A stretch of DNA of 64,000 bases from positions 1,116,001 to 1,180,000 of the forward strand of contig QPFY01000007.1 of the NCBI GenBank assembly GCA_003665825.1, written 5' to 3'. Under the pieces are notes generated by a model. That model made no database searches and was not told where the DNA came from. It worked only from the letters and a program-made list of their open reading frames with translations. The position numbers and the translations under genes were made by a program. This document shows positions 33,371 through 64,000 of this stretch, piece by piece. Source of the DNA: Microbotryum silenes-acaulis (lineage: Eukaryota; Basidiomycota; Microbotryomycetes; Microbotryales; Microbotryaceae). The stretch's first letter is position 1. Each line of letters starts with the position of its first letter.

Positions 33371-33402
<32 letters not shown>

Positions 33403-33480: not shown

Positions 33481-34583
33481 GGAAGATGTGTACAGTGTGT
33501 TTTCAGTTGCTCGTACGGATAGCAATCTTTTGGCAGTCGTGTTGGAACAAAACCGTTCATTCAACTGGGTTCCCTCATCCTCATCCTCATCCTTCGCTGG
33601 CCCTTAGACCGCTCGGCCATATCTCCCCCAGATGTGTACAGTGTGTTTTCAGTTGCTCGTACGGATAGCAATCTTTTGGCAGTCGTGTTGGAACAAAACC
33701 GTTCATTCAGCTGGGTTCCCTCATCCTCATCCTCATCCTCATCCTTCGCTGGCCCTTAGACCGCTCGGCCATATCTCCCCCAGATGTGTACAGTGTGTTT
33801 TCAGTTGCTCGTACGGATAGCAATCTTTTGGCAGTCGTGTTGGAACAAAACCGTTCATTCAACTGGGTTCCCTCATCCTCATCCTCATCCTTCGCTGGCC
33901 CTTAGACCGCTCGGCCATATCTCCCCCAGATGTGTACAGTGTGTTTTCAGTTGCTCGTACGGATAGCAATCTTTTGGCAGTCGTGTTGGAACAAAACCGT
34001 TCATTCAGCTGGGTTCCCTCATCCTCATCCTCATCCTCATCCTTCGCTGGCCCTTAGACCGCTCGGCCATATCTCCCCCAGATGTGTACAGTGTGTTTTC
34101 AGTTGCTCGTACGGATAGCAATCTTTTGGCAGTCGTGTTGGAACAAAACCGTTCATTCAACTGGGTTCCCTCATCCTCATCCTCATCCTTCGCTGGCCCT
34201 TAGACCGCTCGGCCATATCTCCCCCAGATGTGTACAGTGTGTTTTCAGTTGCTCGTACGGATAGCAATCTTTTGGCAGTCGTGTTGGAACAAAACCGTTC
34301 ATTCAGCTGGGTTCCCTCATCCTCATCCTCATCCTCATCCTTCGCTGGCCCTTAGACCGCTCGGCCATATCTCCCCCAGATGTGTACAGTGTGTTTTCAG
34401 TTGCTCGTACGGATAGCAATCTTTTGGCAGTCGTGTTGGAACAAAACCGTTCATTCAACTGGGTTCCCTCATCCTCATCCTCATCCTTCGCTGGCCCTTA
34501 GACCGCTCGGCCATATCTCCCCCAGATGTGTACAGTGTGTTTTCAGTTGCTCGTACGGATAGCAATCTTTTGGCAGTCGTGTT
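33481..34583. repeat. Minisatellite array A (tRNA-Leu-derived, 146/152-bp units)
   Basis: Units can be phased on ATGTGTACAG, found at 33486, 33632, 33784, 33930, 34082, 34228, 34380 and 34526. Spacing alternates strictly 146, 152, 146, 152 and so on. The short form has three CCTCAT-type hexamers and CAACTGG. The long form has four and CAGCTGG. Every unit contains the 5' half of tRNA-Leu on the minus strand (CTTAGACCGCTCGGCCATAT on the plus strand) up to the anticodon stem, then a flank identical to the real tRNA's upstream flank. The array ends exactly at LINE copy 1. Confidence 0.95.
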
Positions 34584-34782
34584 TGGTACTCACCGCGCGT
34601 TGGAGTCCGCGTTAGGTGCTCGGCGGGTTTTGATCTGCGCAGCGCTCTTTGCGCGCAGGGGTTTGACTTTCACCCAACTGCTTGCCGTCGTTGCTTTATA
34701 ACCTCTTTTAGCTCTTTTTGTAGCGGTCCCAGCCAACCTGAAGGATTGCAATTTATGAGCCCCAGTCCCAAAAAAAAAAAAA
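34584..34782 (+). repeat. 199-bp A-tailed segment at the 5' end of LINE copy 1
   Basis: This segment starts at the target junction (TGGTACTCACC), contains a GC-rich hairpin (CTGCGC...GCGCAG near 34636-34660), and ends in its own 13-nt poly(A). It is directly followed by the heptamer tract. It is absent from copy 3, which makes it look like a separate short A-tailed insertion (SINE-like) at the same site. It codes for nothing recognisable. Confidence 0.6.
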
Positions 34783-34994
34783 TCTTTCATCTTTCATCTT
34801 TCATCTTTCATCTTTCATCTTTCATCTTTCATCTTTCATCTTTCATCTTTCATCTTTCATCTTTCATCTTTCATCTTTCATCTTTCATCTTTCATCTATC
34901 ATCTTACATCTTTCATCTTTCATCTTTCATCTTTCATCTTTCATCTTTCATCTTTCATCTTTCATCTTTCATCTTTCATCTTTCATCTTTCATC
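34783..34994 (+). repeat. (TCTTTCA)n heptamer tract, about 30 units, LINE copy 1
   Basis: This is a pyrimidine-rich 7-bp tandem repeat with two variant units (TCTATCA, TCTTACA) near 34894-34908. It directly precedes the ~70-nt ORF1 leader. Confidence 0.95.
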
Positions 34995-35067
34995 CCAATC
35001 GCACTACCCTACCTCTGCAAACGTCAATACATCGAATACATCAACTGCTACACCAGCTATCGACCCG

Positions 35068-37068
35068 ATGTCCGACCAGGCACCGCCTGATCCGGGCCGC
35101 GGCCCTCCGGAGCCGGCAGCGACGGGACAACCACGTGGTGACGCGGGGGCGGAAGCCGATGCCGCCGAGGGACCAGCGAACCCCGGCCTAGCGCTGTACC
35201 AGGAAAAGCGTGATGAAGAAAAGAAGAGGAAAGAGGATGTCGCGAGAATCCTGAAGATGATCAGTGTCGAAGATGGCACACGCCAGGGCACCCGCATCCT
35301 TGTGCTCAAAGACGCACTCGGCTTCGGCAAGGACCGGGCCACCTCCCTGCGCTTCAGCGCACTCAATGCAACGAAACCAATTACCGACACGTCTGGTGCC
35401 GTTCTGGAAGTCACGTTCGAACACACCGGCGTGGCCACCGAACGCGAGAAGTCCGAGTTGTACTCGAAGGTGCTCCGTACCCTGTCGCCCGACACGTCGT
35501 TGTGTTTTAACCTGCCCGCAGGAGTTGTCCTCCCGCCCGAGCTCCAGAAATACGCTCCAATCATCCATGGAGTCGCACCGGAATCGATCATCCAAAGCGG
35601 TAACACCCGGTTCAAGTTCGTGGTGCGCTGCGCTAGCGCAGCGGCGCTGGACCAAGTCCACGACGCGGCGACCAAGATCGAGTGGAAACGCTCCTTTGCC
35701 CAAGTCCGCAAGCGCTTGGCGTTCGTCAAAAACGTCGTCGAACTGCGTTTCATTATCAGTCCTGAGGCCGAATACACGAACGACGACCTCTGGAACAAAC
35801 TGCAAGGCGTCGTCGCCAAGCTTACCGGGGACGGCCACAAGTGCGACTTGCTCCAACTCCAGCAGCCTCTAACGGTCGTTCAAGGCTCGTACCTCGTCGC
35901 TCGAGGAAACTACGCGGCCATCGTCCAGTTCGACGACGACGACCTGTTCAAGAACAACGGTGCTCAACTTAGGCAGGTTCTACCGACGAGGATCGACCTT
36001 CGGGGACGACTCGCAACACTCACGCCCCTTCGCCACGACTACGAGGCCGAAGCCTCGTGCCGCCGATGCGGCTTTGTAGGCCACTCCGACAACTGCGTTC
36101 AAAAGCCGGTCCAGCGTCAGCAGGCCTCCCAGAAAAACAACAACAACCAAAGGCCCCAGGCCGAGCCCCAAAGCAACATCGAGCAAACCTCGACCCCCCA
36201 AAAACAACGCAGAGGTGATGTAGCCTCTCCCTCTCCCCCAATGTCTCCTGTCGCGTCCAAGCGTTCAAAGAAGAACGCATCTCCCACAAGGGACACTAAC
36301 AACTCACCACGAGTCTACCCTACTCGTTCACAAAGCTCTACACCCACAGCATCCGCCCCTCGCGGTTTCATCGTCGCCGCAAACCCATTCGCAAGTCTGG
36401 CCGGCGACGTAGCCGAGGAGGCGCAGGAGGAGCCCGCTCAGGCCCTCGAGGACGACGAGGACGCGATGAGCGTAGTCGAGGCACAGCTGGAACAACAGCA
36501 GGAGGTGCCGCCGCTGGAGCCTTCGGATCTGTCGGATCTGCAGGACCGCGGAGCGGAGGGGAACCAGGGGGAACACACGGAGACGAGTGACGCGGAAGAA
36601 GGGGAATCGCAGTCGGCCGAGACGGGGTCTGTGCCTGAGATTGTTTCGACGACTCCTGAGCATACCCCTGAGCTGACGCGCTCCCGATCGGCCAGTCACC
36701 ATCAGCTTGATATGGACGGCCTTCCCGACGACTGGATGAATCGTGTGTCGGATCGCGAGCGCAAACAGGATGCTGGTCTATACGATGAGATCACCGAGTT
36801 GGACCGCACCCCGTCTGTGACCGGTTGGATGCCTTCGCCGTCTCCAGGTCCAGTGTTTGATCCCGAGCCCGAGCCCAAGCCCAAGCAGGAGGTGGACGAT
36901 GGAAGTTCCCAGGGTCTTCGCCGGTCCGAGCGTATCCAGCGTCTCACCAGCGTCGCGCGCACATCGGACTGGAACGAATCGACTGCTGCGGACCCGCTCC
37001 CCTCACCCACATTCGGACCTATGTTGTCCATCAAGGGAGCTGCTGCTGCAACGAAGGCGCGATCGTAA
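35068..37068 (+). CDS. LINE copy 1 ORF1 protein (666 aa)
   Basis: This is the nucleic-acid-binding ORF1 expected of a LINE. The N-terminal part is Pro/Ala-rich and then charged (EKRDEEKKRKEDVARIL). A central region of ~250 residues has no motif I recognise. A zinc knuckle follows at about residues 331-343, CRRCGFVGHSDNC, with CX2CX4HX3C spacing, one residue short of the common CX2CX4HX4C. The rest is Gln-, Ser- and Glu-rich and probably disordered, ending KGAAAATKARS. The stop codon TAA overlaps the ORF2 start (TAATG), so reinitiation after termination is likely. Such proteins bind the element's RNA in the retrotransposition particle. Confidence 0.9.
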   Translation: MSDQAPPDPGRGPPEPAATGQPRGDAGAEADAAEGPANPGLALYQEKRDEEKKRKEDVARILKMISVEDGTRQGTRILVLKDALGFGKDRATSLRFSALNATKPITDTSGAVLEVTFEHTGVATEREKSELYSKVLRTLSPDTSLCFNLPAGVVLPPELQKYAPIIHGVAPESIIQSGNTRFKFVVRCASAAALDQVHDAATKIEWKRSFAQVRKRLAFVKNVVELRFIISPEAEYTNDDLWNKLQGVVAKLTGDGHKCDLLQLQQPLTVVQGSYLVARGNYAAIVQFDDDDLFKNNGAQLRQVLPTRIDLRGRLATLTPLRHDYEAEASCRRCGFVGHSDNCVQKPVQRQQASQKNNNNQRPQAEPQSNIEQTSTPQKQRRGDVASPSPPMSPVASKRSKKNASPTRDTNNSPRVYPTRSQSSTPTASAPRGFIVAANPFASLAGDVAEEAQEEPAQALEDDEDAMSVVEAQLEQQQEVPPLEPSDLSDLQDRGAEGNQGEHTETSDAEEGESQSAETGSVPEIVSTTPEHTPELTRSRSASHHQLDMDGLPDDWMNRVSDRERKQDAGLYDEITELDRTPSVTGWMPSPSPGPVFDPEPEPKPKQEVDDGSSQGLRRSERIQRLTSVARTSDWNESTAADPLPSPTFGPMLSIKGAAAATKARS

Positions 37069-40000
37069 TGATTGACTTCATCATCATGACCTGGAACGTC
37101 AACAGGGGCTTCAATACCCCTGAACGACGTCGTCTGCTTCTTTCGTATTTCACTTCGCTCACACCTCCCCCTTCTGCTATCCTTCTCCAGGAACACAATG
37201 TTCCTAAATCACGACAATCTCACATACGCCACGAGTACGCCCAGTCCCACCAGGGCGAGGCCTACTTTTCTCAACACTGCCTCACTTTGATTCCAAGCTC
37301 TTCTCCTCTTCTCGGTGGTCATCGTCGCACGCGTCAGTCTCTTGGCGGGCGCTTACTCGTGACCACCTTCGATGTGCGGGGTTCGACGGACGTCGTCGAA
37401 CTCAACAATATCTACGCTCCGGTTCAACCCGCCGAGCGCCTCCTCTTCTTCACCTCCCTTCACTTTCGGGCGACCGTCTCCTCTCACATTCGGTTCATCG
37501 CGGGCGATCTCAACGACTGCCCTATCCCCGCGGTGGATCGAGCGCAACAGGTGGACCGCCCGAACACCCACCACTGGCCCGCGCTTATGTCGCGGCTCGA
37601 CGGGGCGTACACGGATGCCATTCGGCTCATGCACCCACTGTCGCCGGCGACCACGCGCCCGCATCTCAGCAAGGACGGCCGGCTCATTTCGCGCGCGCGC
37701 ATCGACTTTGTTCTGGTGCAGCGGCGACACGAGCGACGGATCGTTTCTGCTTCCACTCTGTACAATATCTCTCGATCCATGTCGGATCATCGACCGGTTA
37801 CGGTCACATTTAGGCTGCGCGCAAGTGGTGCCGAGGTCGAAGAGGAGCTCTGCCTTCCCCAGGCGGCTCATTTTCTGACCCGCATCAACTCGTCAACCTT
37901 CAAACACGCCGAGTTTAAGGAGTTCGTCACTCCTCTCCTTGAGCAGGCACCGTCTGGGGATCCGGTCGCCGACCTTCAGCGCGTACTCTCGGAGTCTCGG
38001 GTCCAAGCTCTCGAGCTGTCTCGGCGTCTGTTTCGGGAGCGCAACGCCCTCGAGATGATGCTGGTATCTCGACTGCAGGACATTGAGTCTCGTCGGGTGC
38101 TGAGTCCCTTTGACATCATCGACTGGACGAACACCCACGACGCTCTCACCAAACTTGTGAACGAGCGAGCAAGGCAGTCCCGGATCAGGGCGCACGTTCC
38201 CGAGATTGCATCCGAGGAACGTCTCAGTCGTCCGGTACATGCCAAACTGGCTGCTCGGTCCCGGGATGTGAAGTTTCAGAGTATCCGGCTCGCTGATGGC
38301 GAGCTCACCACTGACATTGAGCGCGCGCTCGAGCACACCCATTCTCATTTCCAGCAGCACTACCTTGTCGAAGCGAAGGATCCGGAACAGGTCGTGACGA
38401 TGCGGGATGAGCTCTTGGGACCCATCAGATCAGCAAGACCTTGTGACGACCCGCTTTCCGACGCTCGCTTCCTTCGGCGCTTCTCGAATTCGCACGTCGA
38501 CATTCTTGCCGAGCCCATCAGCGAGGCCGAGGTGCTCGCAGCGATTCGAACCACGCACGAAGGTCGATCTCCGGGTCCTTCAGGGGTCCCCTATGAGATG
38601 TATCGAGCCTGCCCCTTGCTTTGGGCCCCTCTCTTGACTCGAGCCTACAACGAGCTGATTACTCGAGGCTCCCTTACTCCACAACAGAGCCAGGCGAATG
38701 TGCGCCTCTTGTTCAAACACAACAAACCTGGTGCAGCGCGGTGCGACCTCAAATCGTATCGTCCGATCACCTTGCGGGAATGCGACTACAAGATCTTCAC
38801 CAAGGTCTACGTGGCTCGTCTGAACCGGATCCTCCCCGATGTTCTTCCGGCCGGACAGCATGGGTTCGTCAAAGGGCGAAGACCAGCGGACGCGGCTTTG
38901 CATCTGAGGCTCCTGATCGATGAGATTAGGGGTCGTGGGGCAGAGTTCCCGACAGCAGCGCTCCTCTCCCTGGATCAGAGCTCGGCTTACGACATGGTCG
39001 AGCACGACTGGGTCTTTGCGGTGTTTGAGGCTCTCGGCGCGCCGGAATCTTTCCAGCGCGTCTTGCGGATGCTCTACAACGGCGAGACGTCCACAGCGCG
39101 GTACATTGTCAACGGTTTCCTTACCGAGACGGTGCGACTCCTGTGCGGTCTTGGCCAGGGCGATCCTCTCTCTTCTTCTGTCTGGGATGTGGTATTCCAA
39201 CCCTTCCTTGATTCTCTCAGTCGACGCAACATTGCGCTGACTATCACTCTTCCGGAGCTGGCTCCTCGTCCACAGACTCGATGCATCACCAATTTGGCGT
39301 TCGCGGATGACGCCGTCGTCGCTGTCGCTGGACCGGAAGCTATTGCTTCGCTCGAGGCGTTAGCTCGGGATTGGCGACTCGCGACGAACGGCCGTCTAAA
39401 CACCGACAAAACCGTGGTGATGCCATTGGGCGCGACGTTGTGGGATCGCGCGGACTTGTCCAAACTGTCGTTCGTGGCACCGGACGAGTCTCTTCCCTGG
39501 ATCGGTCTCCAGTTTGCGCCTGACGGCAACAACAGGCTGGGATTCCATGATCTTGAGCGAAGGGTCGATCGAGTGATTCTCTCGGTGCGCGACCGATGGA
39601 TGACGCATCATACCCGGGCTTTCTATCTCAACCGCTACGGCATCTCCAAGGTGCTGCACTCTCTCTCCGCCGACGTACCGCCATCCGACGTGATCAAGGC
39701 GATCGAGCGCAAGCTTGCCGACTTTGTGAAGGGAGGACCGCGGCGCAGTGACTACAAGCAATCGGTCGTCTTCACGACACGGGCGCGAGGTGGTCTCAGC
39801 GTCGTGAGCATCCAAGATGTGGTGGATTCAGTCTCGGTACGGATTTGGGACGTGCTGGCCGGCGGGTCAACTGCGATTTGGAGCGATCTGGCTCGGAGTT
39901 CCATCCGGCGAGCGCTTCCGACCTTTGACTTTGCTACGGATCTGTGGACGTGGAGGAACGCCGACGCACCCCGGGAGCTACATCCCCGCTGGCGAGCGGT

Positions 40001-41108
40001 GCTCTCGGTCGCTGAACGCTACCCTGCCGTCGTCGATCCTGCCAAACTTTCGGTCTCCAATTTTCTTTCTCTTTCTCCCCTCCAACCTGGTCTGCATGAC
40101 TCGCGGGCGTTCTCGGAGCAGGATAAGCGTTTGGCGAAGCTTTTCAGTTTCGAACGCACCATCGCTGACATCTATGCGCGAGCCCAATACCCCGCAGCTC
40201 CAACGGTGCCCTGGACCCCTGAGAAGCATCCCCAAGGCGACGGCTCGGAGCTGTCCAACCTTTGGCAATGGAAGCGCGATCAAGTCCAGGCGTGGATCCA
40301 GGTCGCAGGCGATCGCCTCATCCCGCCGCTTCCGCCTCCTGTTCCCGTCCTCGCACGTCGACCACCCGTCATTCGTGTTGTTGGAGCACCTGGAGTCCGG
40401 CCCGGCGGTCCCCTCGAGCACATCTTGCCCAGAGCGACTCCGGTCGGCGTGCCTGATCAAAAACTTCCCCTCCCCTCCGGCCCCTTGTGTGCTGATCAGT
40501 GGAGAATGTTGAACTTGGACAGACCTTACACCATTGCGCGACTTCGACGCGTCATCAACCATCGACGTTTCGACCACACACAACGCCCTGGATCACTCGT
40601 CACACCCAAAGAAAGGCGACTCTTCTGGGTGTGGTTCCACACCGGGCCCGCCACGGCCCGCGAGCGCGAGGTGCACTTCAAGCTGGCGTACCACTTCACG
40701 CCAACGCGGAAGCGCCAGTTTGTGCAGCGGCATGGCGACTCAGCCTGCTGCCTCGTGCAGGCATGCAGCCTGGCAGGGGTGGAGGATGACTTTACTCACT
40801 TTTGGCATGATTGCCCTGACTCTTCTCAGTTTTGGCAAGCAGCTAGGTCCATTCTCTGCGACGCGCTGGGGGTCGTGTCGATCCTCGACCTCGACTACAC
40901 GGCACTTCAGATCGAGCACGGCCTCCCTCGACTGCGCGCTCGCCTTCCGACGTCGAAAAAGCGCCCAATCCGCGCCTTCATTGCGCTGGCGCTCGACACT
41001 CTCAGCAACCGACGCTGGGATCTCCATCGCCACGCCAAAGCGATGTCGAGCATGGACAAGGAGATGGCGGGACTGAAGGAGAGGTTGGAGCTCAGATTGG
41101 CACGATGA
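37068..41108 (+). CDS. LINE copy 1 ORF2: APE endonuclease and reverse transcriptase (1346 aa)
   Basis: The N-terminal ~250 residues form an apurinic-type endonuclease: MTWNVNRGF, LLQEHNV (Glu42), NNIYAPV, AGDLNDC (Asp147), ARIDFVLV and SDHRPVTV with the catalytic His. The reverse transcriptase spans about 540-820: [38 protein letters not shown] (first Asp), [11 protein letters not shown] and the active-site FADD at ~746. A C-terminal Cys/His cluster follows at ~1225-1260 (ACCLVQAC...HFWHDC). I see no RNase H motif. The frame is open throughout and its protein is identical to that of copy 2. The enzyme should nick the target and reverse-transcribe the element RNA there. Confidence 0.95.
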   Translation: MIDFIIMTWNVNRGFNTPERRRLLLSYFTSLTPPPSAILLQEHNVPKSRQSHIRHEYAQSHQGEAYFSQHCLTLIPSSSPLLGGHRRTRQSLGGRLLVTTFDVRGSTDVVELNNIYAPVQPAERLLFFTSLHFRATVSSHIRFIAGDLNDCPIPAVDRAQQVDRPNTHHWPALMSRLDGAYTDAIRLMHPLSPATTRPHLSKDGRLISRARIDFVLVQRRHERRIVSASTLYNISRSMSDHRPVTVTFRLRASGAEVEEELCLPQAAHFLTRINSSTFKHAEFKEFVTPLLEQAPSGDPVADLQRVLSESRVQALELSRRLFRERNALEMMLVSRLQDIESRRVLSPFDIIDWTNTHDALTKLVNERARQSRIRAHVPEIASEERLSRPVHAKLAARSRDVKFQSIRLADGELTTDIERALEHTHSHFQQHYLVEAKDPEQVVTMRDELLGPIRSARPCDDPLSDARFLRRFSNSHVDILAEPISEAEVLAAIRTTHEGRSPGPSGVPYEMYRACPLLWAPLLTRAYNELITRGSLTPQQSQANVRLLFKHNKPGAARCDLKSYRPITLRECDYKIFTKVYVARLNRILPDVLPAGQHGFVKGRRPADAALHLRLLIDEIRGRGAEFPTAALLSLDQSSAYDMVEHDWVFAVFEALGAPESFQRVLRMLYNGETSTARYIVNGFLTETVRLLCGLGQGDPLSSSVWDVVFQPFLDSLSRRNIALTITLPELAPRPQTRCITNLAFADDAVVAVAGPEAIASLEALARDWRLATNGRLNTDKTVVMPLGATLWDRADLSKLSFVAPDESLPWIGLQFAPDGNNRLGFHDLERRVDRVILSVRDRWMTHHTRAFYLNRYGISKVLHSLSADVPPSDVIKAIERKLADFVKGGPRRSDYKQSVVFTTRARGGLSVVSIQDVVDSVSVRIWDVLAGGSTAIWSDLARSSIRRALPTFDFATDLWTWRNADAPRELHPRWRAVLSVAERYPAVVDPAKLSVSNFLSLSPLQPGLHDSRAFSEQDKRLAKLFSFERTIADIYARAQYPAAPTVPWTPEKHPQGDGSELSNLWQWKRDQVQAWIQVAGDRLIPPLPPPVPVLARRPPVIRVVGAPGVRPGGPLEHILPRATPVGVPDQKLPLPSGPLCADQWRMLNLDRPYTIARLRRVINHRRFDHTQRPGSLVTPKERRLFWVWFHTGPATAREREVHFKLAYHFTPTRKRQFVQRHGDSACCLVQACSLAGVEDDFTHFWHDCPDSSQFWQAARSILCDALGVVSILDLDYTALQIEHGLPRLRARLPTSKKRPIRAFIALALDTLSNRRWDLHRHAKAMSSMDKEMAGLKERLELRLAR

Positions 41109-42495
41109 AGTAGACGGCGCTCCTCCCTACCCAGCCAAGAACCACAAACCAAAAACCAAATAAAAATCACAAGTCCCCTTTCCCTCTTTCTCAATCTCCA
41201 AAATGTCTCCCAAACACGCCAGAATACTGAACCTGTTTTCTCTCGCTCTTTTTGCCATTCCTCCTCATAGGCTTCCGTACTCCCCAGGAGCCTCGGGTTC
41301 TTTGCGCCGGCGGGCATTGTCGCCCTTGGTTCGAGCTTCTGCCACATCACGATGACACACAGCGAAAGCGGATCCCCTTGGCCCTCTCCTGGACTACGCC
41401 GTGAGTTTTCCACTCCTCTCAAGGGCCGGGTCTGTCTTCTCTTTCGGTCGAGCGACTCCGTGATCTCCTGTTCAAGGCCGGCACAAACTGCCTGCGTGGC
41501 TCGCCTCTCCTTGCTTTGCTGCTCGCTCGGAGTCGCGGCCGCGCGGCGGGTGACTCGGGTACCGAACCGCCATACACATCCACACTCGAGCGAGGTCCCA
41601 CACAATGACATCACCGTCGTGGGCCTCATGCTCCTTCTTTCCCCAGTATCTGCGGTGATTGGGAACCACCTGCACGTACAACGGGACTCGAGTGTGCGTT
41701 CCGAGATTGGGAGTACGCCGCAGGGAAGCGAGGCCCCTGCGGAAGGTATACCCCGCCTCTGGTCTCCAGCCGCGCGCCGGTGTTGTCGGCCACCCGCCCG
41801 CGCTGCAGACCGAGGCGTGTCCAATGGACTGTCACATGCTCCGTGACTTTCCCCGGAAATCTCTGGATTGTGTGTTTTTGTGCGAAGTAGGCCTGTTTCG
41901 CAGTTGCAGTCATTGAAATGGGGGTGATCTGGGGTCGTGCGGTCGCGAGGGGGGGGCCGACTTTGGTAACCGAAAAGGGGTTTGGAATCCGCGGTGCAGA
42001 TCCAGCGCAGTTGGGTACAAGGGGTAGGTGATTGCTGCGGTCGCAGGGGGTTACATCCCCCCTTTGGACCACGTGAATCATTCGGATTGAGCGGGATGTT
42101 TGTGCCATCGGAGGCCTTGTTCGACGCGTGTCAAAGAATTAAGGGGCTTCAAGGAGTAGGGCGGTCTCAGGGTGGGTCTGAAGTCAAAAGATCGAAGAAG
42201 GTTCAACTGTACAACTATAATCGGATTCGCCTGTACAACACATGTACCACCACCAACAATTCCTCCATCGTTTCCCGATTCCTTGTGTATTATCTTCAAT
42301 CTTCCTTTCATTCGTCTCTGGGAGGGAGCAACCGTGGGTGGGGGGGACTTGAACTCGGATGTATCGGGTTGGTCTGTTCTGCTAGTTACAACGCATCGAG
42401 CGGCGGTTGTGGTCATCATCGTGCATACTGGGCAGCATCTCCTTTAGTTCCGTAGGGGGTTTTCTCGTCTTGCAAATTAGCGATGAGTTTCATAC
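41109..42495 (+). other. LINE copy 1 3' UTR
   Basis: About 1.4 kb between the ORF2 stop and the poly(A) tail. Short frames exist but none looks functional. Near 42345-42400 the minus strand carries TAGCAGAACAG and GAGTTCAAGTCC, loosely like pol III A and B boxes, so this may be a worn tRNA-like relic. Confidence 0.6.
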
Positions 42496-54330: not shown

Positions 54331-57300
54331 TGATTGACTTCATCATCATGACCTGGAACGTCAACAGGGGCTTCAATACCCCTGAACGACGTCGTCTGCT
54401 TCTTTCGTATTTCACTTCGCTCACACCTCCCCCTTCTGCTATCCTTCTCCAGGAACACAATGTTCCTAAATCACGACAATCTCACATACGCCACGAGTAC
54501 GCCCAGTCCCACCAGGGCGAGGCCTACTTTTCTCAACACTGCCTCACTTTGATTCCAAGCTCTTCTCCTCTTCTCGGTGGTCATCGTCGCACGCGTCAGT
54601 CTCTTGGCGGGCGCTTACTCGTGACCACCTTCGATGTGCGGGGTTCGACGGACGTCGTCGAACTCAACAATATCTACGCTCCGGTTCAACCCGCCGAGCG
54701 CCTCCTCTTCTTCACCTCCCTTCACTTTCGGGCGACCGTCTCCTCTCACATTCGGTTCATCGCGGGCGATCTCAACGACTGCCCTATCCCCGCGGTGGAT
54801 CGAGCGCAACAGGTGGACCGCCCGAACACCCACCACTGGCCCGCGCTTATGTCGCGGCTCGACGGGGCGTACACGGATGCCATTCGGCTCATGCACCCAC
54901 TGTCGCCGGCGACCACGCGCCCGCATCTCAGCAAGGACGGCCGGCTCATTTCGCGCGCGCGCATCGACTTTGTTCTGGTGCAGCGGCGACACGAGCGACG
55001 GATCGTTTCTGCTTCCACTCTGTACAATATCTCTCGATCCATGTCGGATCATCGACCGGTTACGGTCACATTTAGGCTGCGCGCAAGTGGTGCCGAGGTC
55101 GAAGAGGAGCTCTGCCTTCCCCAGGCGGCTCATTTTCTGACCCGCATCAACTCGTCAACCTTCAAACACGCCGAGTTTAAGGAGTTCGTCACTCCTCTCC
55201 TTGAGCAGGCACCGTCTGGGGATCCGGTCGCCGACCTTCAGCGCGTACTCTCGGAGTCTCGGGTCCAAGCTCTCGAGCTGTCTCGGCGTCTGTTTCGGGA
55301 GCGCAACGCCCTCGAGATGATGCTGGTATCTCGACTGCAGGACATTGAGTCTCGTCGGGTGCTGAGTCCCTTTGACATCATCGACTGGACGAACACCCAC
55401 GACGCTCTCACCAAACTTGTGAACGAGCGAGCAAGGCAGTCCCGGATCAGGGCGCACGTTCCCGAGATTGCATCCGAGGAACGTCTCAGTCGTCCGGTAC
55501 ATGCCAAACTGGCTGCTCGGTCCCGGGATGTGAAGTTTCAGAGTATCCGGCTCGCTGATGGCGAGCTCACCACTGACATTGAGCGCGCGCTCGAGCACAC
55601 CCATTCTCATTTCCAGCAGCACTACCTTGTCGAAGCGAAGGATCCGGAACAGGTCGTGACGATGCGGGATGAGCTCTTGGGACCCATCAGATCAGCAAGA
55701 CCTTGTGACGACCCGCTTTCCCGACGCTCGCTTCCTTCGGCGCTTCTCGAATTCGCACGTCGACATTCTTGCCGAGCCCATCAGCGAGGCCGAGGTGCTC
55801 GCAGCGATTCGAACCACGCACGAAGGTCGATCTCCGGGTCCTTCAGGGGTCCCCTATGAGATGTATCGAGCCTGCCCCTTGCTTTGGGCCCCTCTCTTGA
55901 CTCGAGCCTACAACGAGCTGATTACTCGAGGCTCCCTTACTCCACAACAGAGCCAGGCGAATGTGCGCCTCTTGTTCAAACACAACAAACCTGGTGCAGC
56001 GCGGTGCGACCTCAAATCGTATCGTCCGATCACCTTGCGGGAATGCGACTACAAGATCTTCACCAAGGTCTACGTGGCTCGTCTGAACCGGATCCTCCCC
56101 GATGTTCTTCCGGCCGGACAGCATGGGTTCGTCAAAGGGCGAAGACCAGCGGACGCGGCTTTGCATCTGAGGCTCCTGATCGATGAGATTAGGGGTCGTG
56201 GGGCAGAGTTCCCGACAGCAGCGCTCCTCTCCCTGGATCAGAGCTCGGCTTACGACATGGTCGAGCACGACTGGGTCTTTGCGGTGTTTGAGGCTCTCGG
56301 CGCGCCGGAATCTTTCCAGCGCGTCTTGCGGATGCTCTACAACGGCGAGACGTCCACAGCGCGGTACATTGTCAACGGTTTCCTTACCGAGACGGTGCGA
56401 CTCCTGTGCGGTCTTGGCCAGGGCGATCCTCTCTCTTCTTCTGTCTGGGATGTGGTATTCCAACCCTTCCTTGATTCTCTCAGTCGACGCAACATTGCGC
56501 TGACTATCACTCTTCCGGAGCTGGCTCCTCGTCCACAGACTCGATGCATCACCAATTTGGCGTTCGCGGATGACGCCGTCGTCGCTGTCGCTGGACCGGA
56601 AGCTATTGCTTCGCTCGAGGCGTTAGCTCGGGATTGGCGACTCGCGACGAACGGCCGTCTAAACACCGACAAAACCGTGGTGATGCCATTGGGCGCGACG
56701 TTGTGGGATCGCGCGGACTTGTCCAAACTGTCGTTCGTGGCACCGGACGAGTCTCTTCCCTGGATCGGTCTCCAGTTTGCGCCTGACGGCAACAACAGGC
56801 TGGGATTCCATGATCTTGAGCGAAGGGTCGATCGAGTGATTCTCTCGGTGCGCGACCGATGGATGACGCATCATACCCGGGCTTTCTATCTCAACCGCTA
56901 CGGCATCTCCAAGGTGCTGCACTCTCTCTCCGCCGACGTACCGCCATCCGACGTGATCAAGGCGATCGAGCGCAAGCTTGCCGACTTTGTGAAGGGAGGA
57001 CCGCGGCGCAGTGACTACAAGCAATCGGTCGTCTTCACGACACGGGCGCGAGGTGGTCTCAGCGTCGTGAGCATCCAAGATGTGGTGGATTCAGTCTCGG
57101 TACGGATTTGGGACGTGCTGGCCGGCGGGTCAACTGCGATTTGGAGCGATCTGGCTCGGAGTTCCATCCGGCGAGCGCTTCCGACCTTTGACTTTGCTAC
57201 GGATCTGTGGACGTGGAGGAACGCCGACGCACCCCGGGAGCTACATCCCCGCTGGCGAGCGGTGCTCTCGGTCGCTGAACGCTACCCTGCCGTCGTCGAT

Positions 57301-58371
57301 CCTGCCAAACTTTCGGTCTCCAATTTTCTTTCTCTTTCTCCCCTCCAACCTGGTCTGCATGACTCGCGGGCGTTCTCGGAGCAGGATAAGCGTTTGGCGA
57401 AGCTTTTCAGTTTCGAACGCACCATCGCTGACATCTATGCGCGAGCCCAATACCCCGCAGCTCCAACGGTGCCCTGGACCCCTGAGAAGCATCCCCAAGG
57501 CGACGGCTCGGAGCTGTCCAACCTTTGGCAATGGAAGCGCGATCAAGTCCAGGCGTGGATCCAGGTCGCAGGCGATCGCCTCATCCCGCCGCTTCCGCCT
57601 CCTGTTCCCGTCCTCGCACGTCGACCACCCGTCATTCGTGTTGTTGGAGCACCTGGAGTCCGGCCCGGCGGTCCCCTCGAGCACATCTTGCCCAGAGCGA
57701 CTCCGGTCGGCGTGCCTGATCAAAAACTTCCCCTCCCCTCCGGCCCCTTGTGTGCTGATCAGTGGAGAATGTTGAACTTGGACAGACCTTACACCATTGC
57801 GCGACTTCGACGCGTCATCAACCATCGACGTTTCGACCACACACAACGCCCTGGATCACTCGTCACACCCAAAGAAAGGCGACTCTTCTGGGTGTGGTTC
57901 CACACCGGGCCCGCCACGGCCCGCGAGCGCGAGGTGCACTTCAAGCTGGCGTACCACTTCACGCCAACGCGGAAGCGCCAGTTTGTGCAGCGGCATGGCG
58001 ACTCAGCCTGCTGCCTCGTGCAGGCATGCAGCCTGGCAGGGGTGGAGGATGACTTTACTCACTTTTGGCATGATTGCCCTGACTCTTCTCAGTTTTGGCA
58101 AGCAGCTAGGTCCATTCTCTGCGACGCGCTGGGGGTCGTGTCGATCCTCGACCTCGACTACACGGCACTTCAGATCGAGCACGGCCTCCCTCGACTGCGC
58201 GCTCGCCTTCCGACGTCGAAAAAGCGCCCAATCCGCGCCTTCATTGCGCTGGCGCTCGACACTCTCAGCAACCGACGCTGGGATCTCCATCGCCACGCCA
58301 AAGCGATGTCGAGCATGGACAAGGAGATGGCGGGACTGAAGGAGAGGTTGGAGCTCAGATTGGCACGATGA
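54330..58371 (+). pseudogene. LINE copy 3 ORF2, frameshifted
   Basis: Relative to copy 1 one C is added in CTTTCC (now CTTTCCC) at about 55720. The endonuclease half (~460 residues) reads normally and then runs to a stop at 55857-55859. The reverse transcriptase half is intact in the original frame from about 55720 to 58371, including FADD. Confidence 0.88.
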
Positions 58372-59758
58372 AGTAGACGGCGCTCCTCCCTACCCAGCCA
58401 AGAACCACAAACCAAAAACCAAATAAAAATCACAAGTCCCCTTTCCCTCTTTCTCAATCTCCAAAATGTCTCCCAAACACGCCAGAATACTGAACCTGTT
58501 TTCTCTCGCTCTTTTTGCCATTCCTCCTCATAGGCTTCCGTACTCCCCAGGAGCCTCGGGTTCTTTGCGCCGGCGGGCATTGTCGCCCTTGGTTCGAGCT
58601 TCTGCCACATCACGATGACACACAGCGAAAGCGGATCCCCTTGGCCCTCTCCTGGACTACGCCGTGAGTTTTCCACTCCTCTCAAGGGCCGGGTCTGTCT
58701 TCTCTTTCGGTCGAGCGACTCCGTGATCTCCTGTTCAAGGCCGGCACAAACTGCCTGCGTGGCTCGCCTCTCCTTGCTTTGCTGCTCGCTCGGAGTCGCG
58801 GCCGCGCGGCGGGTGACTCGGGTACCGAACCGCCATACACATCCACACTCGAGCGAGGTCCCACACAATGACATCACCGTCGTGGGCCTCATGCTCCTTC
58901 TTTCCCCAGTATCTGCGGTGATTGGGAACCACCTGCACGTACAACGGGACTCGAGTGTGCGTTCCGAGATTGGGAGTACGCCGCAGGGAAGCGAGGCCCC
59001 TGCGGAAGGTATACCCCGCCTCTGGTCTCCAGCCGCGCGCCGGTGTTGTCGGCCACCCGCCCGCGCTGCAGACCGAGGCGTGTCCAATGGACTGTCACAT
59101 GCTCCGTGACTTTCCCCGGAAATCTCTGGATTGTGTGTTTTTGTGCGAAGTAGGCCTGTTTCGCAGTTGCAGTCATTGAAATGGGGGTGATCTGGGGTCG
59201 TGCGGTCGCGAGGGGGGGGCCGACTTTGGTAACCGAAAAGGGGTTTGGAATCCGCGGTGCAGATCCAGCGCAGTTGGGTACAAGGGGTAGGTGATTGCTG
59301 CGGTCGCAGGGGGTTACATCCCCCCTTTGGACCACGTGAATCATTCGGATTGAGCGGGATGTTTGTGCCATCGGAGGCCTTGTTCGACGCGTGTCAAAGA
59401 ATTAAGGGGCTTCAAGGAGTAGGGCGGTCTCAGGGTGGGTCTGAAGTCAAAAGATCGAAGAAGGTTCAACTGTACAACTATAATCGGATTCGCCTGTACA
59501 ACACATGTACCACCACCAACAATTCCTCCATCGTTTCCCGATTCCTTGTGTATTATCTTCAATCTTCCTTTCATTCGTCTCTGGGAGGGAGCAACCGTGG
59601 GTGGGGGGGACTTGAACTCGGATGTATCGGGTTGGTCTGTTCTGCTAGTTACAACGCATCGAGCGGCGGTTGTGGTCATCATCGTGCATACTGGGCAGCA
59701 TCTCCTTTAGTTCCGTAGGGGGTTTTCTCGTCTTGCAAATTAGCGATGAGTTTCATAC
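58372..59758 (+). other. LINE copy 3 3' UTR
   Basis: Non-coding 3' region equivalent to that of copy 1, including the minus-strand TAGCAGAACAG / GAGTTCAAGTCC stretch. Confidence 0.6.
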
Positions 59759-59771
59759 AAAAAAAAAAAAA

Positions 59772-60970
59772 TGGAACAAAACCGTTCATTCAGCTGGGTT
59801 CCCTCATCCTCATCCTCATCCTCAGCCTTCGCTGGCCCTTAGACCGCTCGGCCATATCTCCCCCAGATGTGTACAGTGTGTTTTCAGTTGCTCGTACGGA
59901 TAGCAATCTTTTGGCAGTCGTGTTGGAACAAAACCGTTCATTCAGCTGGGTTCCCTCATCCTCATCCTCATCCTCATCCTTCGCTGGCCCTTAGACCGCT
60001 CGGCCATATCTCCCCCAGATGTGTACAGTGTGTTTTCAGTTGCTCGTACGGATAGCAATCTTTTGGCAGTCGTGTTGGAACAAAACCGTTCATTCAGCTG
60101 GGTTCCCTCATCCTCATCCTCATCCTCATCCTTCGCTGGCCCTTAGACCGCTCGGCCATATCTCCCCCAGATGTGTACAGTGTGTTTTCAGTTGCTCGTA
60201 CGGATAGCAATCTTTTGGCAGTCGTGTTGGAACAAAACCGTTCATTCAACTGGGTTCCCTCATCCTCATCCTCATCCTTCGCTGGCCCTTAGACCGCTCG
60301 GCCATATCTCCCCCAGATGTGTACAGTGTGTTTTCAGTTGCTCGTACGGATAGCAATCTTTTGGCAGTCGTGTTGGAACAAAACCGTTCATTCAGCTGGG
60401 TTCCCTCATCCTCATCCTCATCCTCATCCTTCGCTGGCCCTTAGACCGCTCGGCCATATCTCCCCCAGATGTGTACAGTGTGTTTTCAGTTGCTCGTACG
60501 GATAGCAATCTTTTGGCAGTCGTGTTGGAACAAAACCGTTCATTCAACTGGGTTCCCTCATCCTCATCCTCATCCTTCGCTGGCCCTTAGACCGCTCGGC
60601 CATATCTCCCCCAGATGTGTACAGTGTGTTTTCAGTTGCTCGTACGGATAGCAATCTTTTGGCAGTCGTGTTGGAACAAAACCGTTCATTCAGCTGGGTT
60701 CCCTCATCCTCATCCTCATCCTCATCCTTCGCTGGCCCTTAGACCGCTCGGCCATATCTCCCCCAGATGTGTACAGTGTGTTTTCAGTTGCTCGTACGGA
60801 TAGCAATCTTTTGGCAGTCGTGTTGGAACAAAACCGTTCATTCAACTGGGTTCCCTCATCCTCATCCTCATCCTTCGCTGGCCCTTAGACCGCTCGGCCA
60901 TATCTCCCCCAGATGTGTACAGTGTGTTTTCAGTTGCTCGTACGGATAGCAATCTTTTGGCAGTCGTGTT
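59772..60970. repeat. Minisatellite array D
   Basis: Units at 59867, 60019, 60171, 60317, 60469, 60615, 60767 and 60913 are spaced 152, 152, 146, 152, 146, 152, 146. This is the same pattern as array B except for B's single-C loss. It starts with the CCTCAGCC variant and ends at LINE copy 4. Confidence 0.95.
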
Positions 60971-61169
60971 TGGTACTCACCGCGCGTTGGAGTCCGCGTT
61001 AGGTGCTCGGCGGGTTTTGATCTGCGCAGCGCTCTTTGCGCGCAGGGGTTTGACTTTCACCCAACTGCTTGCCGTCGTTGCTTTATAACCTCTTTTAGCT
61101 CTTTTTGTAGCGGTCCCAGCCAACCTGAAGGATTGCAATTTATGAGCCCCAGTCCCAAAAAAAAAAAAA
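60971..61169 (+). repeat. A-tailed 199-bp segment, LINE copy 4
   Basis: Same sequence, junction and 13-nt poly(A) as in copies 1 and 2. Confidence 0.6.
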
Positions 61170-61381
61170 TCTTTCATCTTTCATCTTTCATCTTTCATCT
61201 TTCATCTTTCATCTTTCATCTTTCATCTTTCATCTTTCATCTTTCATCTTTCATCTTTCATCTTTCATCTTTCATCTTTCATCTATCATCTTACATCTTT
61301 CATCTTTCATCTTTCATCTTTCATCTTTCATCTTTCATCTTTCATCTTTCATCTTTCATCTTTCATCTTTCATCTTTCATC
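61170..61381 (+). repeat. (TCTTTCA)n heptamer tract, LINE copy 4
   Basis: Same length and the same variant units as in copies 1 and 2. Confidence 0.95.
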
Positions 61382-61454
61382 CCAATCGCACTACCCTACC
61401 TCTGCAAACGTCAATACATCGAATACATCAACTGCTACACCAGCTATCGACCCG

Positions 61455-63455
61455 ATGTCCGACCAGGCACCGCCTGATCCGGGCCGCGGCCCTCCGGAGC
61501 CGGCAGCGACGGGACAACCACGTGGTGACGCGGGGGCGGAAGCCGATGCCGCCGAGGGACCAGCGAACCCCGGCCTAGCGCTGTACCAGGAAAAGCGTGA
61601 TGAAGAAAAGAAGAGGAAAGAGGATGTCGCGAGAATCCTGAAGATGATCAGTGTCGAAGATGGCACACGCCAGGGCACCCGCATCCTTGTGCTCAAAGAC
61701 GCACTCGGCTTCGGCAAGGACCGGGCCACCTCCCTGCGCTTCAGCGCACTCAATGCAACGAAACCAATTACCGACACGTCTGGTGCCGTTCTGGAAGTCA
61801 CGTTCGAACACACCGGCGTGGCCACCGAACGCGAGAAGTCCGAGTTGTACTCGAAGGTGCTCCGTACCCTGTCGCCCGACACGTCGTTGTGTTTTAACCT
61901 GCCCGCAGGAGTTGTCCTCCCGCCCGAGCTCCAGAAATACGCTCCAATCATCCATGGAGTCGCACCGGAATCGATCATCCAAAGCGGTAACACCCGGTTC
62001 AAGTTCGTGGTGCGCTGCGCTAGCGCAGCGGCGCTGGACCAAGTCCACGACGCGGCGACCAAGATCGAGTGGAAACGCTCCTTTGCCCAAGTCCGCAAGC
62101 GCTTGGCGTTCGTCAAAAACGTCGTCGAACTGCGTTTCATTATCAGTCCTGAGGCCGAATACACGAACGACGACCTCTGGAACAAACTGCAAGGCGTCGT
62201 CGCCAAGCTTACCGGGGACGGCCACAAGTGCGACTTGCTCCAACTCCAGCAGCCTCTAACGGTCGTTCAAGGCTCGTACCTCGTCGCTCGAGGAAACTAC
62301 GCGGCCATCGTCCAGTTCGACGACGACGACCTGTTCAAGAACAACGGTGCTCAACTTAGGCAGGTTCTACCGACGAGGATCGACCTTCGGGGACGACTCG
62401 CAACACTCACGCCCCTTCGCCACGACTACGAGGCCGAAGCCTCGTGCCGCCGATGCGGCTTTGTAGGCCACTCCGACAACTGCGTTCAAAAGCCGGTCCA
62501 GCGTCAGCAGGCCTCCCAGAAAAACAACAACAACCAAAGGCCCCAGGCCGAGCCCCAAAGCAACATCGAGCAAACCTCGACCCCCCAAAAACAACGCAGA
62601 GGTGATGTAGCCTCTCCCTCTCCCCCAATGTCTCCTGTCGCGTCCAAGCGTTCAAAGAAGAACGCATCTCCCACAAGGGACACTAACAACTCACCACGAG
62701 TCTACCCTACTCGTTCACAAAGCTCTACACCCACAGCATCCGCCCCTCGCGGTTTCATCGTCGCCGCAAACCCATTCGCAAGTCTGGCCGGCGACGTAGC
62801 CGAGGAGGCGCAGGAGGAGCCCGCTCAGGCCCTCGAGGACGACGAGGACGCGATGAGCGTAGTCGAGGCACAGCTGGAACAACAGCAGGAGGTGCCGCCG
62901 CTGGAGCCTTCGGATCTGTCGGATCTGCAGGACCGCGGAGCGGAGGGGAACCAGGGGGAACACACGGAGACGAGTGACGCGGAAGAAGGGGAATCGCAGT
63001 CGGCCGAGACGGGGTCTGTGCCTGAGATTGTTTCGACGACTCCTGAGCATACCCCTGAGCTGACGCGCTCCCGATCGGCCAGTCACCATCAGCTTGATAT
63101 GGACGGCCTTCCCGACGACTGGATGAATCGTGTGTCGGATCGCGAGCGCAAACAGGATGCTGGTCTATACGATGAGATCACCGAGTTGGACCGCACCCCG
63201 TCTGTGACCGGTTGGATGCCTTCGCCGTCTCCAGGTCCAGTGTTTGATCCCGAGCCCGAGCCCAAGCCCAAGCAGGAGGTGGACGATGGAAGTTCCCAGG
63301 GTCTTCGCCGGTCCGAGCGTATCCAGCGTCTCACCAGCGTCGCGCGCACATCGGACTGGAACGAATCGACTGCTGCGGACCCGCTCCCCTCACCCACATT
63401 CGGACCTATGTTGTCCATCAAGGGAGCTGCTGCTGCAACGAAGGCGCGATCGTAA
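61455..63455 (+). CDS. LINE copy 4 ORF1 protein (666 aa)
   Basis: Same protein as in copies 1 and 2, with the TAATG overlap into ORF2. Confidence 0.9.
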   Translation: MSDQAPPDPGRGPPEPAATGQPRGDAGAEADAAEGPANPGLALYQEKRDEEKKRKEDVARILKMISVEDGTRQGTRILVLKDALGFGKDRATSLRFSALNATKPITDTSGAVLEVTFEHTGVATEREKSELYSKVLRTLSPDTSLCFNLPAGVVLPPELQKYAPIIHGVAPESIIQSGNTRFKFVVRCASAAALDQVHDAATKIEWKRSFAQVRKRLAFVKNVVELRFIISPEAEYTNDDLWNKLQGVVAKLTGDGHKCDLLQLQQPLTVVQGSYLVARGNYAAIVQFDDDDLFKNNGAQLRQVLPTRIDLRGRLATLTPLRHDYEAEASCRRCGFVGHSDNCVQKPVQRQQASQKNNNNQRPQAEPQSNIEQTSTPQKQRRGDVASPSPPMSPVASKRSKKNASPTRDTNNSPRVYPTRSQSSTPTASAPRGFIVAANPFASLAGDVAEEAQEEPAQALEDDEDAMSVVEAQLEQQQEVPPLEPSDLSDLQDRGAEGNQGEHTETSDAEEGESQSAETGSVPEIVSTTPEHTPELTRSRSASHHQLDMDGLPDDWMNRVSDRERKQDAGLYDEITELDRTPSVTGWMPSPSPGPVFDPEPEPKPKQEVDDGSSQGLRRSERIQRLTSVARTSDWNESTAADPLPSPTFGPMLSIKGAAAATKARS

Positions 63456-64000
63456 TGATTGACTTCATCATCATGACCTGGAACGTCAACAGGGGCTTCA
63501 ATACCCCTGAACGACGTCGTCTGCTTCTTTCGTATTTCACTTCGCTCACACCTCCCCCTTCTGCTATCCTTCTCCAGGAACACAATGTTCCTAAATCACG
63601 ACAATCTCACATACGCCACGAGTACGCCCAGTCCCACCAGGGCGAGGCCTACTTTTCTCAACACTGCCTCACTTTGATTCCAAGCTCTTCTCCTCTTCTC
63701 GGTGGTCATCGTCGCACGCGTCAGTCTCTTGGCGGGCGCTTACTCGTGACCACCTTCGATGTGCGGGGTTCGACGGACGTCGTCGAACTCAACAATATCT
63801 ACGCTCCGGTTCAACCCGCCGAGCGCCTCCTCTTCTTCACCTCCCTTCACTTTCGGGCGACCGTCTCCTCTCACATTCGGTTCATCGCGGGCGATCTCAA
63901 CGACTGCCCTATCCCCGCGGTGGATCGAGCGCAACAGGTGGACCGCCCGAACACCCACCACTGGCCCGCGCTTATGTCGCGGCTCGACGGGGCGTACACG
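63455..64000 (+). CDS. LINE copy 4 ORF2, 5' part
   Basis: The endonuclease start (TWNVNRGF, LLQEHNV, AGDLNDC) is present and in frame. The gene continues beyond the window. Confidence 0.92.
   Translation, partial: MIDFIIMTWNVNRGFNTPERRRLLLSYFTSLTPPPSAILLQEHNVPKSRQSHIRHEYAQSHQGEAYFSQHCLTLIPSSSPLLGGHRRTRQSLGGRLLVTTFDVRGSTDVVELNNIYAPVQPAERLLFFTSLHFRATVSSHIRFIAGDLNDCPIPAVDRAQQVDRPNTHHWPALMSRLDGAYT

Follow-up and report, generated by a model that had tools for sequence, protein, structure and literature searches.

The window, by which we mean the whole 64,000-nt stretch of Microbotryum silenes-acaulis DNA analysed here, holds LINE copies that repeatedly adjoin a tandem repeat derived from a tRNA-Leu gene, and it raises the question of whether such elements follow a sequence, the neighbouring tRNA gene, or nothing but later duplication. 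We favour a model, at a probability of roughly 0.9, in which LINEs of three families (A, B and C) use target-primed reverse transcription to insert approximately 65 bp upstream of Pol III tRNA genes with their 5′ end nearest the tRNA. The features of the window are as follows.

33363..33480, minus strand: intact tRNA-Leu(TAA) gene with an intron, 5′ end at 33480 (ARAGORN with introns; Rfam RF00005, 46.1 bits)
33481..34583, no strand: array of 146/152-bp units, first block (TRF, pattern search, sequence reading)
34584..34781, plus strand: family-A LINE fragment, 5′-truncated, 3′ end with poly-A (96.7% over 182 bp to L030:4737-4918)
34782..42508, plus strand: family-C LINE copy c1, with (ATCTTTC)n 5′ end, ORF1, ORF2 and 13-nt poly-A
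35068..37068, plus strand: family-C ORF1, 666 aa, with a CCHC-like knuckle, CRRCGFVGHSDNC, at residue 331
37068..41108, plus strand: family-C ORF2, 1346 aa, with predicted APE endonuclease, RT (FADD) and C-terminal Cys/His motif (Pfam and motifs)
42509..43706, no strand: tRNA-Leu half-repeat array, second block (TRF)
43707..43904, plus strand: family-A fragment, second copy
43905..51629, plus strand: family-C LINE copy c2 (repeat analysis and copy comparison)
51630..52237, no strand: half-repeat array, third block, four units (TRF)
52238..59771, plus strand: family-C LINE copy c3, with a short 5′ microsatellite, no family-A fragment and broken ORFs
59772..60970, no strand: half-repeat array, fourth block (TRF)
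60971..61168, plus strand: family-A fragment, third copy (copy comparison)
61169..64000, plus strand: family-C LINE copy c4, running past the window to about C7:1184893

Each unit of the array combines the tRNA-Leu upstream region with roughly 30 nt from the tRNA's 5′ end, making a half-tRNA in which the A box is present and the B box absent (boxes identified by eye). All seven junction coordinates given by the first-pass annotation (four 5′, three 3′) are correct and, as it held, share one point of the repeat unit with a duplication of 0-1 bp. The string GTCGTGTTGGAAC occurs exactly 24 times in a pattern search, only within the array, and 31 times when up to two mismatches are allowed, against a shuffle mean of 1.84. 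The four 5′ junctions lie 63, 63, 62 and 63 bp upstream of the half-tRNA 5′ end, close to the 60 bp originally estimated. At the intact tRNA-Leu gene the insertion site is empty; the insertions adjoin half-tRNA units without a B box.

The apparent element of the window is a composite of a 198-bp 5′-truncated family-A piece and a family-C LINE. The 5′ junctions had been taken as the start of a single element, but at 34584, 43707 and 60971 the first 198 bp are a family-A 3′ end with poly-A, and in c1 the family-C LINE begins within an (ATCTTTC)n repeat at about 34782. At 52238 the family-A piece is missing. The stretch 34584-34781 was also considered as a SINE and rejected, since at L021, L018, L009 and L016 it is continuous with a longer family-A 3′ region of up to about 970 bp. 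The array copies themselves are tandem duplicates of one family-C insertion: c2, with its family-A fragment, equals c1 except for two 1-bp indels, c4 shows no difference from c1 across the shared part, c3 carries the differences that set c1 apart from dispersed copies, and ORF2 spacing along the array alternates (9123, 8139, 9125, 8140 and 9113 bp). Beyond the window, c6 has the c1-type junction again, and the spacing of c5 agrees with the c3 type.

In family C the ORF1 stop and ORF2 start overlap as TAATG. ORF2 matches RVT_1 in Pfam (E 7.2e-21) and Exo_endo_phos with E 4e-05 at 23.9 bits, slightly below the 24.5 cut-off, and it gave no RNase H family match. The motifs LLQEH, GDLND, SDH and FADD, which we take to be diagnostic for this protein, are present; the closest solved structures are LINE-1 ORF2 proteins, and residues 470-900 are 99% identical to M. 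silenes-dioicae proteins. There are 13-nt A tails at three 3′ junctions, and 5′-truncated copies are numerous in the genome. Among 12 of 20 loci examined for target-site duplications, L010 and L025 have 6 bp, L011 and L013 simple-repeat matches only, L014 an unconvincing 5-bp match, and the other seven none of at least 5 bp. Judged by sequence, with APE endonuclease and RT in ORF2, poly-A and truncation, all three families belong to the APE-type LINEs. Full-length ORF2 matches are free of stops in 18 of 21 cases (5 of the 21 lie in the window array) and dispersed copies differ by a median of 0.57%, which together mark the activity as recent.

The association with tRNA genes extends throughout the genome. 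Fifty tRNA matches were chosen by an Rfam search blind to LINEs, with 63 of 669 candidates scored; the 50 are a lower bound, as intron-containing genes may be overlooked, and for M. lychnidis-dioicae 134 + 5 + 2 tRNAs have been reported. An A, B or C copy lies within 450 bp upstream of 32 of the 50, and control segments contained no A/B/C match (0/74). The first-pass idea of a target-specific LINE tied to tRNA stands, as does its demand that duplication be told apart from independent insertion. For 27 of the 32 the LINE start is 49-77 bp from the tRNA (mean 65, sd 6); 31 start less than 100 bp away and the remaining one at 206 bp, with a possible error of a few bases in BLAST start positions. 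At L062 and L079 the first matches are simple repeats, and substituting the longer LINE matches, which begin at 92 and 73 bp, places 26 of 32 at 55-77 bp. Orientation is identical in 32 of 32, the LINE having its 5′ end towards the tRNA and diverging from the gene. Eighteen of the 50 have no A/B/C copy, among them L078 and L080, which are doubtful as nuclear tRNA genes. Beside dispersed copies ARAGORN called Glu, Gln, Pro, Val, Gly, Leu, Ala, Arg, Ile and Lys tRNAs and one "Stop", labels that may be wrong for intron-containing genes. With fixed distance and orientation at many different tRNA genes, A, B and C are tRNA-gene-targeted LINEs. Two U6 places and one 5S place, possible further targets, were also found in the genome.

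The same association is seen when starting from the RT matches, of which 117 of 150 were used; the 33 left aside, 31 from the end of the ranking and 2 from elsewhere in it, are shorter matches of 351-483 nt. Profile boundaries served as a stand-in for family in forming the groups. On the 5′ side, a divergent tRNA no more than 12 kb away accompanies 7 of 21 A-like matches (null 0.33) and, among the B/C-like ones, 23 of 75 (null 0.93), 2 of the 75 having a 5′-side tRNA on the same strand instead. Over the same distance no divergent 5′-side tRNA was found for a fourth RT group (0/15) or LTR-like matches (0/6), and no 3′-side tRNA for any of the 117.

Nineteen of the 20 flanked dispersed family-C loci lead to a tRNA or half-tRNA, 7 of the 19 through other LINE pieces; at L026 no tRNA tie was found. 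The count includes L010 (18 without it), where a tRNA-like sequence 67 bp away has A- and B-box-like parts recognised by eye and was called by neither ARAGORN nor Rfam, L027, linked through mirror symmetry with L028 across some 2.8 kb of unread sequence, and L021, linked through its RT position and far end with about 3.3 kb unread. Nine further family-C places comprise two with a tRNA, three stacked on A or B ends, one adjoining Copia-like sequence, two whose 5′ end was not reached and one of ambiguous context. Insertions of A, B and C beside tRNAs build head-to-tail multi-family stacks; on C25 an A-C stack was predicted to have a tRNA at its far end, and one was found there, whereas the tRNA predicted for a comparable stack on C29 was not found. 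Copies at other tRNA genes arose by independent targeted insertion, and their geometry relative to the tRNA is that of the window junctions relative to the half-tRNA. C9 carries a second Leu array, and a copy there has entered the same repeat unit at another position, 85 bp from the half-tRNA by visual count.

These loci bear directly on what is recognised. That every window junction falls at one common point would suit a strict sequence-specific LINE of the R1/R2/SART kind, with an endonuclease recognising GTCGTGT/TGGAAC in a tRNA-derived minisatellite, as the first-pass annotation proposed. We give this almost no credence: the dispersed copies lie at many tRNA genes with mutually unrelated target sequences, which refutes strict sequence recognition, no base is dominant at 55-70 bp across the 50 tRNA upstream regions, the C9 copy lies elsewhere in the repeat unit, and no single target sequence is common to all copies. 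In several upstream regions a G-rich string, GGGGGGCGG, was seen near −60 as a tentative feature. An origin of all array copies from one insertion, by unequal crossing-over or segmental duplication and with no targeting whatever, is in its first half exactly what the near-identical copies and alternating spacing indicate, and the annotation's claim of repeated insertion fails inside the array on this account. As a whole it is very unlikely, for the 20 dispersed copies examined are flanked differently, 19 of them leading to other tRNA genes or another array, the family-A piece reached this point by an insertion of its own, and the genome-wide tRNA association refutes the absence of targeting; a single insertion, which the annotation said would undo its claim, thus accounts for the array but not for the copies at other tRNA genes, where independent insertion holds.

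Random integration followed by selection purging insertions elsewhere deserves mention in a compact genome (29.85 Mb), where some such selection must operate, yet as the whole explanation it is extremely improbable, since selection alone accounts neither for the spread of about 6 bp and the single orientation nor for the lack of 3′-side tRNAs and of any tRNA tie in the fourth RT group. It is less easy to set aside, though still unlikely, that targeting is real and responds to the shape of the DNA, to a nucleosome-free region or to a TATA-like element instead of TFIIIB. The zone 26-50 bp upstream of the 50 tRNAs is mildly A+T-rich, and the array insertions adjoin units that retain the upstream region and lack the B box, but the distance to the tRNA start is constant despite unrelated upstream sequences, and integration of the similarly placed TRE5-A requires the tRNA B box.

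We therefore return to targeting by the tRNA gene itself. Position and orientation relative to the tRNA are plain from the loci, and target-primed reverse transcription is what the LINE family would lead one to expect. From the distance and from TRE5-A we suggest that the LINE particle, probably via ORF1 protein, would contact DNA-bound TFIIIB, and that the APE would nick just beyond the DNA that TFIIIB covers. The site next to the tRNA would remain open after insertion, allowing newer LINEs to enter between the tRNA and older ones; the head-to-tail stacks, whose structure is observed and whose timing is presumed, would follow from this continued use. In the window a C insertion would have been followed by a truncated A insertion, both 62-63 bp from the tRNA-Leu 5′ end, after which the unit and its LINE cargo were amplified through unequal exchange or a similar process. 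Array insertions far from a B box would not be favoured by TRE5-like targeting, and the half-tRNA insertions (62-63 bp on C7, 85 bp on C9) suggest that an A box with the upstream region may be sufficient for recruitment. Since the ORFs are open and a LINE assay exists in S. cerevisiae, where that for Zorro3 functions, the putative tether between ORF1 protein and TFIIIB is open to testing.

The RT tree, of A, B, C and 46 of 120 listed homologs (49 in all, 5 being lost to a length rule), contains mainly fungal relatives and places A, with Sporobolomyces and Rhodotorula relatives, on a different side from B/C, so that the trait either predates the lineage split or arose twice. We give even odds that LINEs have long targeted tRNA genes in Microbotryomycetes; if so, LINEs of red yeasts are also expected upstream of tRNA genes, at a distance of about 65 bp. 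TRE targeting has been described as unique to dictyostelids (PMC5006619), the tRNA-targeted LINEs in a review table are all from dictyostelids, and the available passages of Microbotryum papers do not mention the habit. Several active-looking LINE families in a fungus, with similar occupancy and identical orientation, would provide strong evidence, by convergence, that APE-LINEs prefer the DNA immediately beyond the Pol III initiation complex as a safe harbour. Such targeting would also explain LINE locations in this anther-smut genome, in which tRNA neighbourhoods become multi-LINE stacks and arrays.

Among known systems, R1, R2, SART and TRAS are target-specific LINEs that each recognise one sequence, which A, B and C do not, and a TAATG-type ORF overlap occurs in SART1. 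Zorro3 of Candida albicans is likewise a fungal LINE, of L1 type, with a known target bias, but it targets poly(A) tracts. Ty1, Ty3, Tj1 and Ylt1 are fungal retroelements found upstream of tRNA genes; these differ in having LTRs and integrase, in their distances, and in that there is no reverse transcription at the target. The behaviour of A, B and C resembles that of Dictyostelium TRE5 and of NLTR-B. NLTR-B of Polysphondylium pallidum is TRE5-like and lies 39-64 bp upstream of tRNA genes, but has RNase H and three ORFs, whereas ORF2 here has no RNase H family match. TRE5-A of Dictyostelium discoideum is an APE-type LINE with ORF1 and ORF2, RT, a C-terminal Cys/His region and an oligo(A) tail, and sits upstream of many tRNA genes in the orientation opposite to the tRNA; occupancy is similar, 61% of tRNA genes having any TRE in D. 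discoideum against 32 of 50 here. It inserts 44-54 bp upstream (47 ± 3 in another source), a range from which the starts found here, around 65 bp, are displaced, and its ORFs are joined by a −1 frameshift rather than the TAATG overlap. The host is a fungus here and a dictyostelid there, and it is in the fungus that the insertions of several families form stacks.

In a genome of 29.85 Mb in 88 contigs, where the window occupies C7:1116001-1180000, the array lies to the right of an intact tRNA-Leu gene:

33363-33480, minus strand: intact, intron-containing tRNA-Leu(TAA) gene (ARAGORN and Rfam)

By eye, each of its 146/152-bp units holds the tRNA-Leu upstream region and roughly 30 nt from the 5' end of the tRNA, a half-tRNA in which the A box is present and the B box absent, and all 24 exact occurrences of GTCGTGTTGGAAC fall within the array. 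The LINE junction coordinates in the first-pass annotation are all correct, and its distance of about 60 bp between junction and tRNA-Leu 5' half measures 63, 63, 62 and 63 bp at the four 5' junctions of the window. At the intact gene the insertion site is empty; the LINEs instead adjoin half-tRNA units. A further array of tRNA-Leu half-repeats, which includes an additional unit type, occupies L017:1-1422 (C9:898994-900415), about 28 kb from a tRNA-Leu-like gene (C9:870744-870861), and also carries a family-C insertion.

The inserted sequence is composite. Three of the four 5' junctions open with 198 bp from the 3' end of another LINE family, A (96.7% identity across 182 bp), a stretch that represents a 5'-truncated family-A insertion with poly-A; in other loci it runs on into as much as about 970 bp of the family-A 3' region, which excludes its identity as a SINE. 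The family-C LINE begins at about 34782, within (ATCTTTC)n, and encodes an ORF1 of 666 aa with a CCHC-like knuckle and an ORF2 of 1346 aa with APE endonuclease, RT and a C-terminal Cys/His motif, the two overlapping as TAATG. Family B has TAATG at the matching position, a similar ORF1 knuckle and an ORF1 that is 37% identical to that of C across 256 aa, and ORF2 identities are 50% for B-C and 37% for both A-C and A-B. Residues 470-900 of C ORF2 are 99% identical to Microbotryum silenes-dioicae proteins and 98% identical to an M. saponariae protein, which places the host in that group of anther-smut fungi. The 5'-end simple repeats differ by family, being (ATCTTTC)n in C (window 34782-34994), (CTTCA)n in B (L029:237-560) and (CA)n in A (L026:8950-8985).

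The caveat that duplication of one insertion could explain several copies holds for the array. Among its family-C copies, two 1-bp indels separate c1 from c2, c1 and c4 show no differences over their shared part and c3 has 4 substitutions relative to c1 across the aligned body, as against 23-62 differences between c1 and 20 dispersed copies. ORF2 spacing alternates (9123, 8139, 9125, 8140 and 9113 bp) and, further along the contig, four units precede c5, as they do c3 (the c5 junction lies just outside the stretch read), and c6 has the same junction as c1. A single C insertion and a later A insertion at the identical point were thus copied together within a tandem segment.

Copies outside the array are independent insertions at tRNA genes. 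Of 37 genome matches to C ORF2, 6 belong to the window array; the other 31 rows fall at 29 places, of which 20 were fetched with about 1 kb of flank. Of these 20, 19 are tied to a tRNA or half-tRNA (18 if L010 is excluded). In 10 the element starts 54-90 bp from an ARAGORN-called tRNA gene; in L010 a tRNA-like sequence 67 bp away is visible by eye but called by no program, and L017, in the C9 Leu half-tRNA array, lies 85 bp from a half-tRNA. A fragment separates tRNA from C copy in L020 and L022 (family B) and L023 (family A); in L024 a C fragment and a copy of U2 snRNA do so. L021, L027 and L028 are the ends of head-to-tail LINE stacks with the tRNA at the opposite end (the L021 and L027 stacks being read in part), leaving L026 as the single fetched copy without a tRNA link. 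Among the nine remaining places, two have a tRNA (C7:1301362 and C16:152962), three (L086, L087, L088) sit in stacks against the 3' end of an A or B element, two were read short of the 5' end (L083, L084), L085 adjoins Copia-like sequence by eye, and L089 falls in no tRNA, stack or Copia class. Independent insertion, which the earlier annotation held must be shown, is found at other tRNA genes, whereas the C copies of the array derive from duplication.

The U2 copy in L024 (8571-8765; C20:348052-348246, minus strand) is full-length, has a score of 117.5 bits that two other U2 loci exceed, and ends 9 bp from a family-C 5' end within the tRNA stack; it looks like a template-switch U2-LINE chimera. 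At C14:696000-738000 (L027, L028, L029, L030, L066, L067) a large inverted duplication holds two facing tRNA genes 4 kb apart, with a B-C-A stack running outwards from each.

The association was also counted from the tRNA side. The 450 bp upstream of 50 tRNA matches from an Rfam search, chosen regardless of LINEs, were compared with A, B and C sequences by BLAST, and 32 of the 50 had a match (32/50 again with the low-complexity filter on, with no other-strand hits), two of the 32 belonging to the C14 inverted duplication. The LINE starts 49-77 bp from the tRNA in 27 of the 32 (mean 65.2, sd 6.0) and less than 100 bp away in 31, the remaining one lying at 206 bp; in two of the 27, L062 and L079, the first match is a simple repeat and the longer LINE match starts at 92 and 73, and using these longer matches places 26/32 at 55-77 bp. 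All 32 LINEs read away from the tRNA, and 74 control segments taken from window 1-33000 gave no match to A, B or C.

Several further features were seen at tRNA and U6 snRNA loci. About 37 bp of upstream sequence (positions 1-37) is common to seven genes (L055, L057, L058, L059, L063, L064, L065), mostly divergent beyond, as if the tRNA had dispersed with a short upstream piece. A GGGGG(G)CGG string recurs 55-100 bp upstream, near the insertion point (L033, L038, L042, L060, L070), at tRNA genes both with and without a LINE. In L045, upstream positions 25-109 hold a direct repeat of about 35 bp flanking a 15-bp A-rich stretch, possibly a minimal insertion whose target duplication is long. Both U6 snRNA matches (C16:847172-847375 and C27:70211-70414) span 204 bp against a 105-position model, which may reflect a U6 intron.

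The position of a tRNA was forecast twice. For the L021 stack, the family-A length taken from C16 placed the A 5' end, and hence the tRNA, near C25:122,800, and the 301 bp fetched there contained a tRNA 5' part at C25:122,900, as forecast, its letters matching the Val-labelled tRNA of L013. Beyond it the sequence runs through a 67-bp spacer, an A tract and a family-B fragment of 58 bp to the 5' end of family A. A similar forecast on C29 failed, L090 holding neither tRNA nor LINE, perhaps due to a truncated B copy there.

Flanks of 12 kb were considered for 117 of the 150 genome RT hits. On the 5' side a divergent tRNA accompanies 7/21 A-like hits (null mean 0.33, maximum 4) and 23/75 B/C-like hits (null mean 0.93, maximum 6; 2000 randomisations), and 0/15 and 0/6 in the fourth and LTR-like groups. 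A same-strand 5' tRNA occurs at 2/75 B/C-like hits, and the 3' flank contains no listed tRNA for any of the 117. In the midpoint-rooted RT tree, whose outgroup branches are long, B joins C (97/97), and the Sporobolomyces, Rhodotorula and environmental rows form a group with A (99/97). With A placed apart from B/C, tRNA targeting is either an ancient trait of Microbotryomycetes or one with two origins.

What is established is a fixed distance and orientation, a wide variety of tRNA targets, poly-A tails and head-to-tail stacking; target duplications are small, or none is clear. Full-length ORF2 matches lack a stop in 18/21, and dispersed C copies diverge by a median of 0.57% over 190 pairs. By analogy with TRE5-A, insertion would proceed by target-primed reverse transcription, with ORF1 effecting recruitment via TFIIIB and the nick placed just beyond it. 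According to PMC5391098 and PMC5911963, TRE5-A integrates at 47 bp, directly outside TFIIIB range, requires the B box and has an ORF1 that binds TBP in vitro. A difficulty for the TFIIIB model is that the intact tRNA gene of the window has a vacant site and that half-tRNA units are what the insertions adjoin, at two loci. Either insertion first took place beside an intact gene and exchange then moved it, or the A box and upstream region suffice.

A search of open-access literature by title and abstract start, a scope with subscription papers and preprints mostly outside it, returned no fungal tRNA-targeted LINE. M. lychnidis-dioicae has 392 LINE copies, with no link to tRNAs in the available portions of that paper (PMC4469406), and the word tRNA is absent from those of PMC10502011 and PMC5381629, also on Microbotryum. 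A review table (PMC5911963) lists TRE5, TRE3, NLTR-A and NLTR-B as tRNA-targeted LINEs, all dictyostelid; PMC5006619 places a TRE at 61% of D. discoideum tRNA genes and terms such targeting unique to dictyostelids. Families A, B and C are classed as tRNA-targeted LINEs by behaviour and are kept apart from TRE5, to which any kinship would be hypothetical, the insertion distance being different, a mean of 65.2 bp from the tRNA here against the 47 bp given for TRE5-A.
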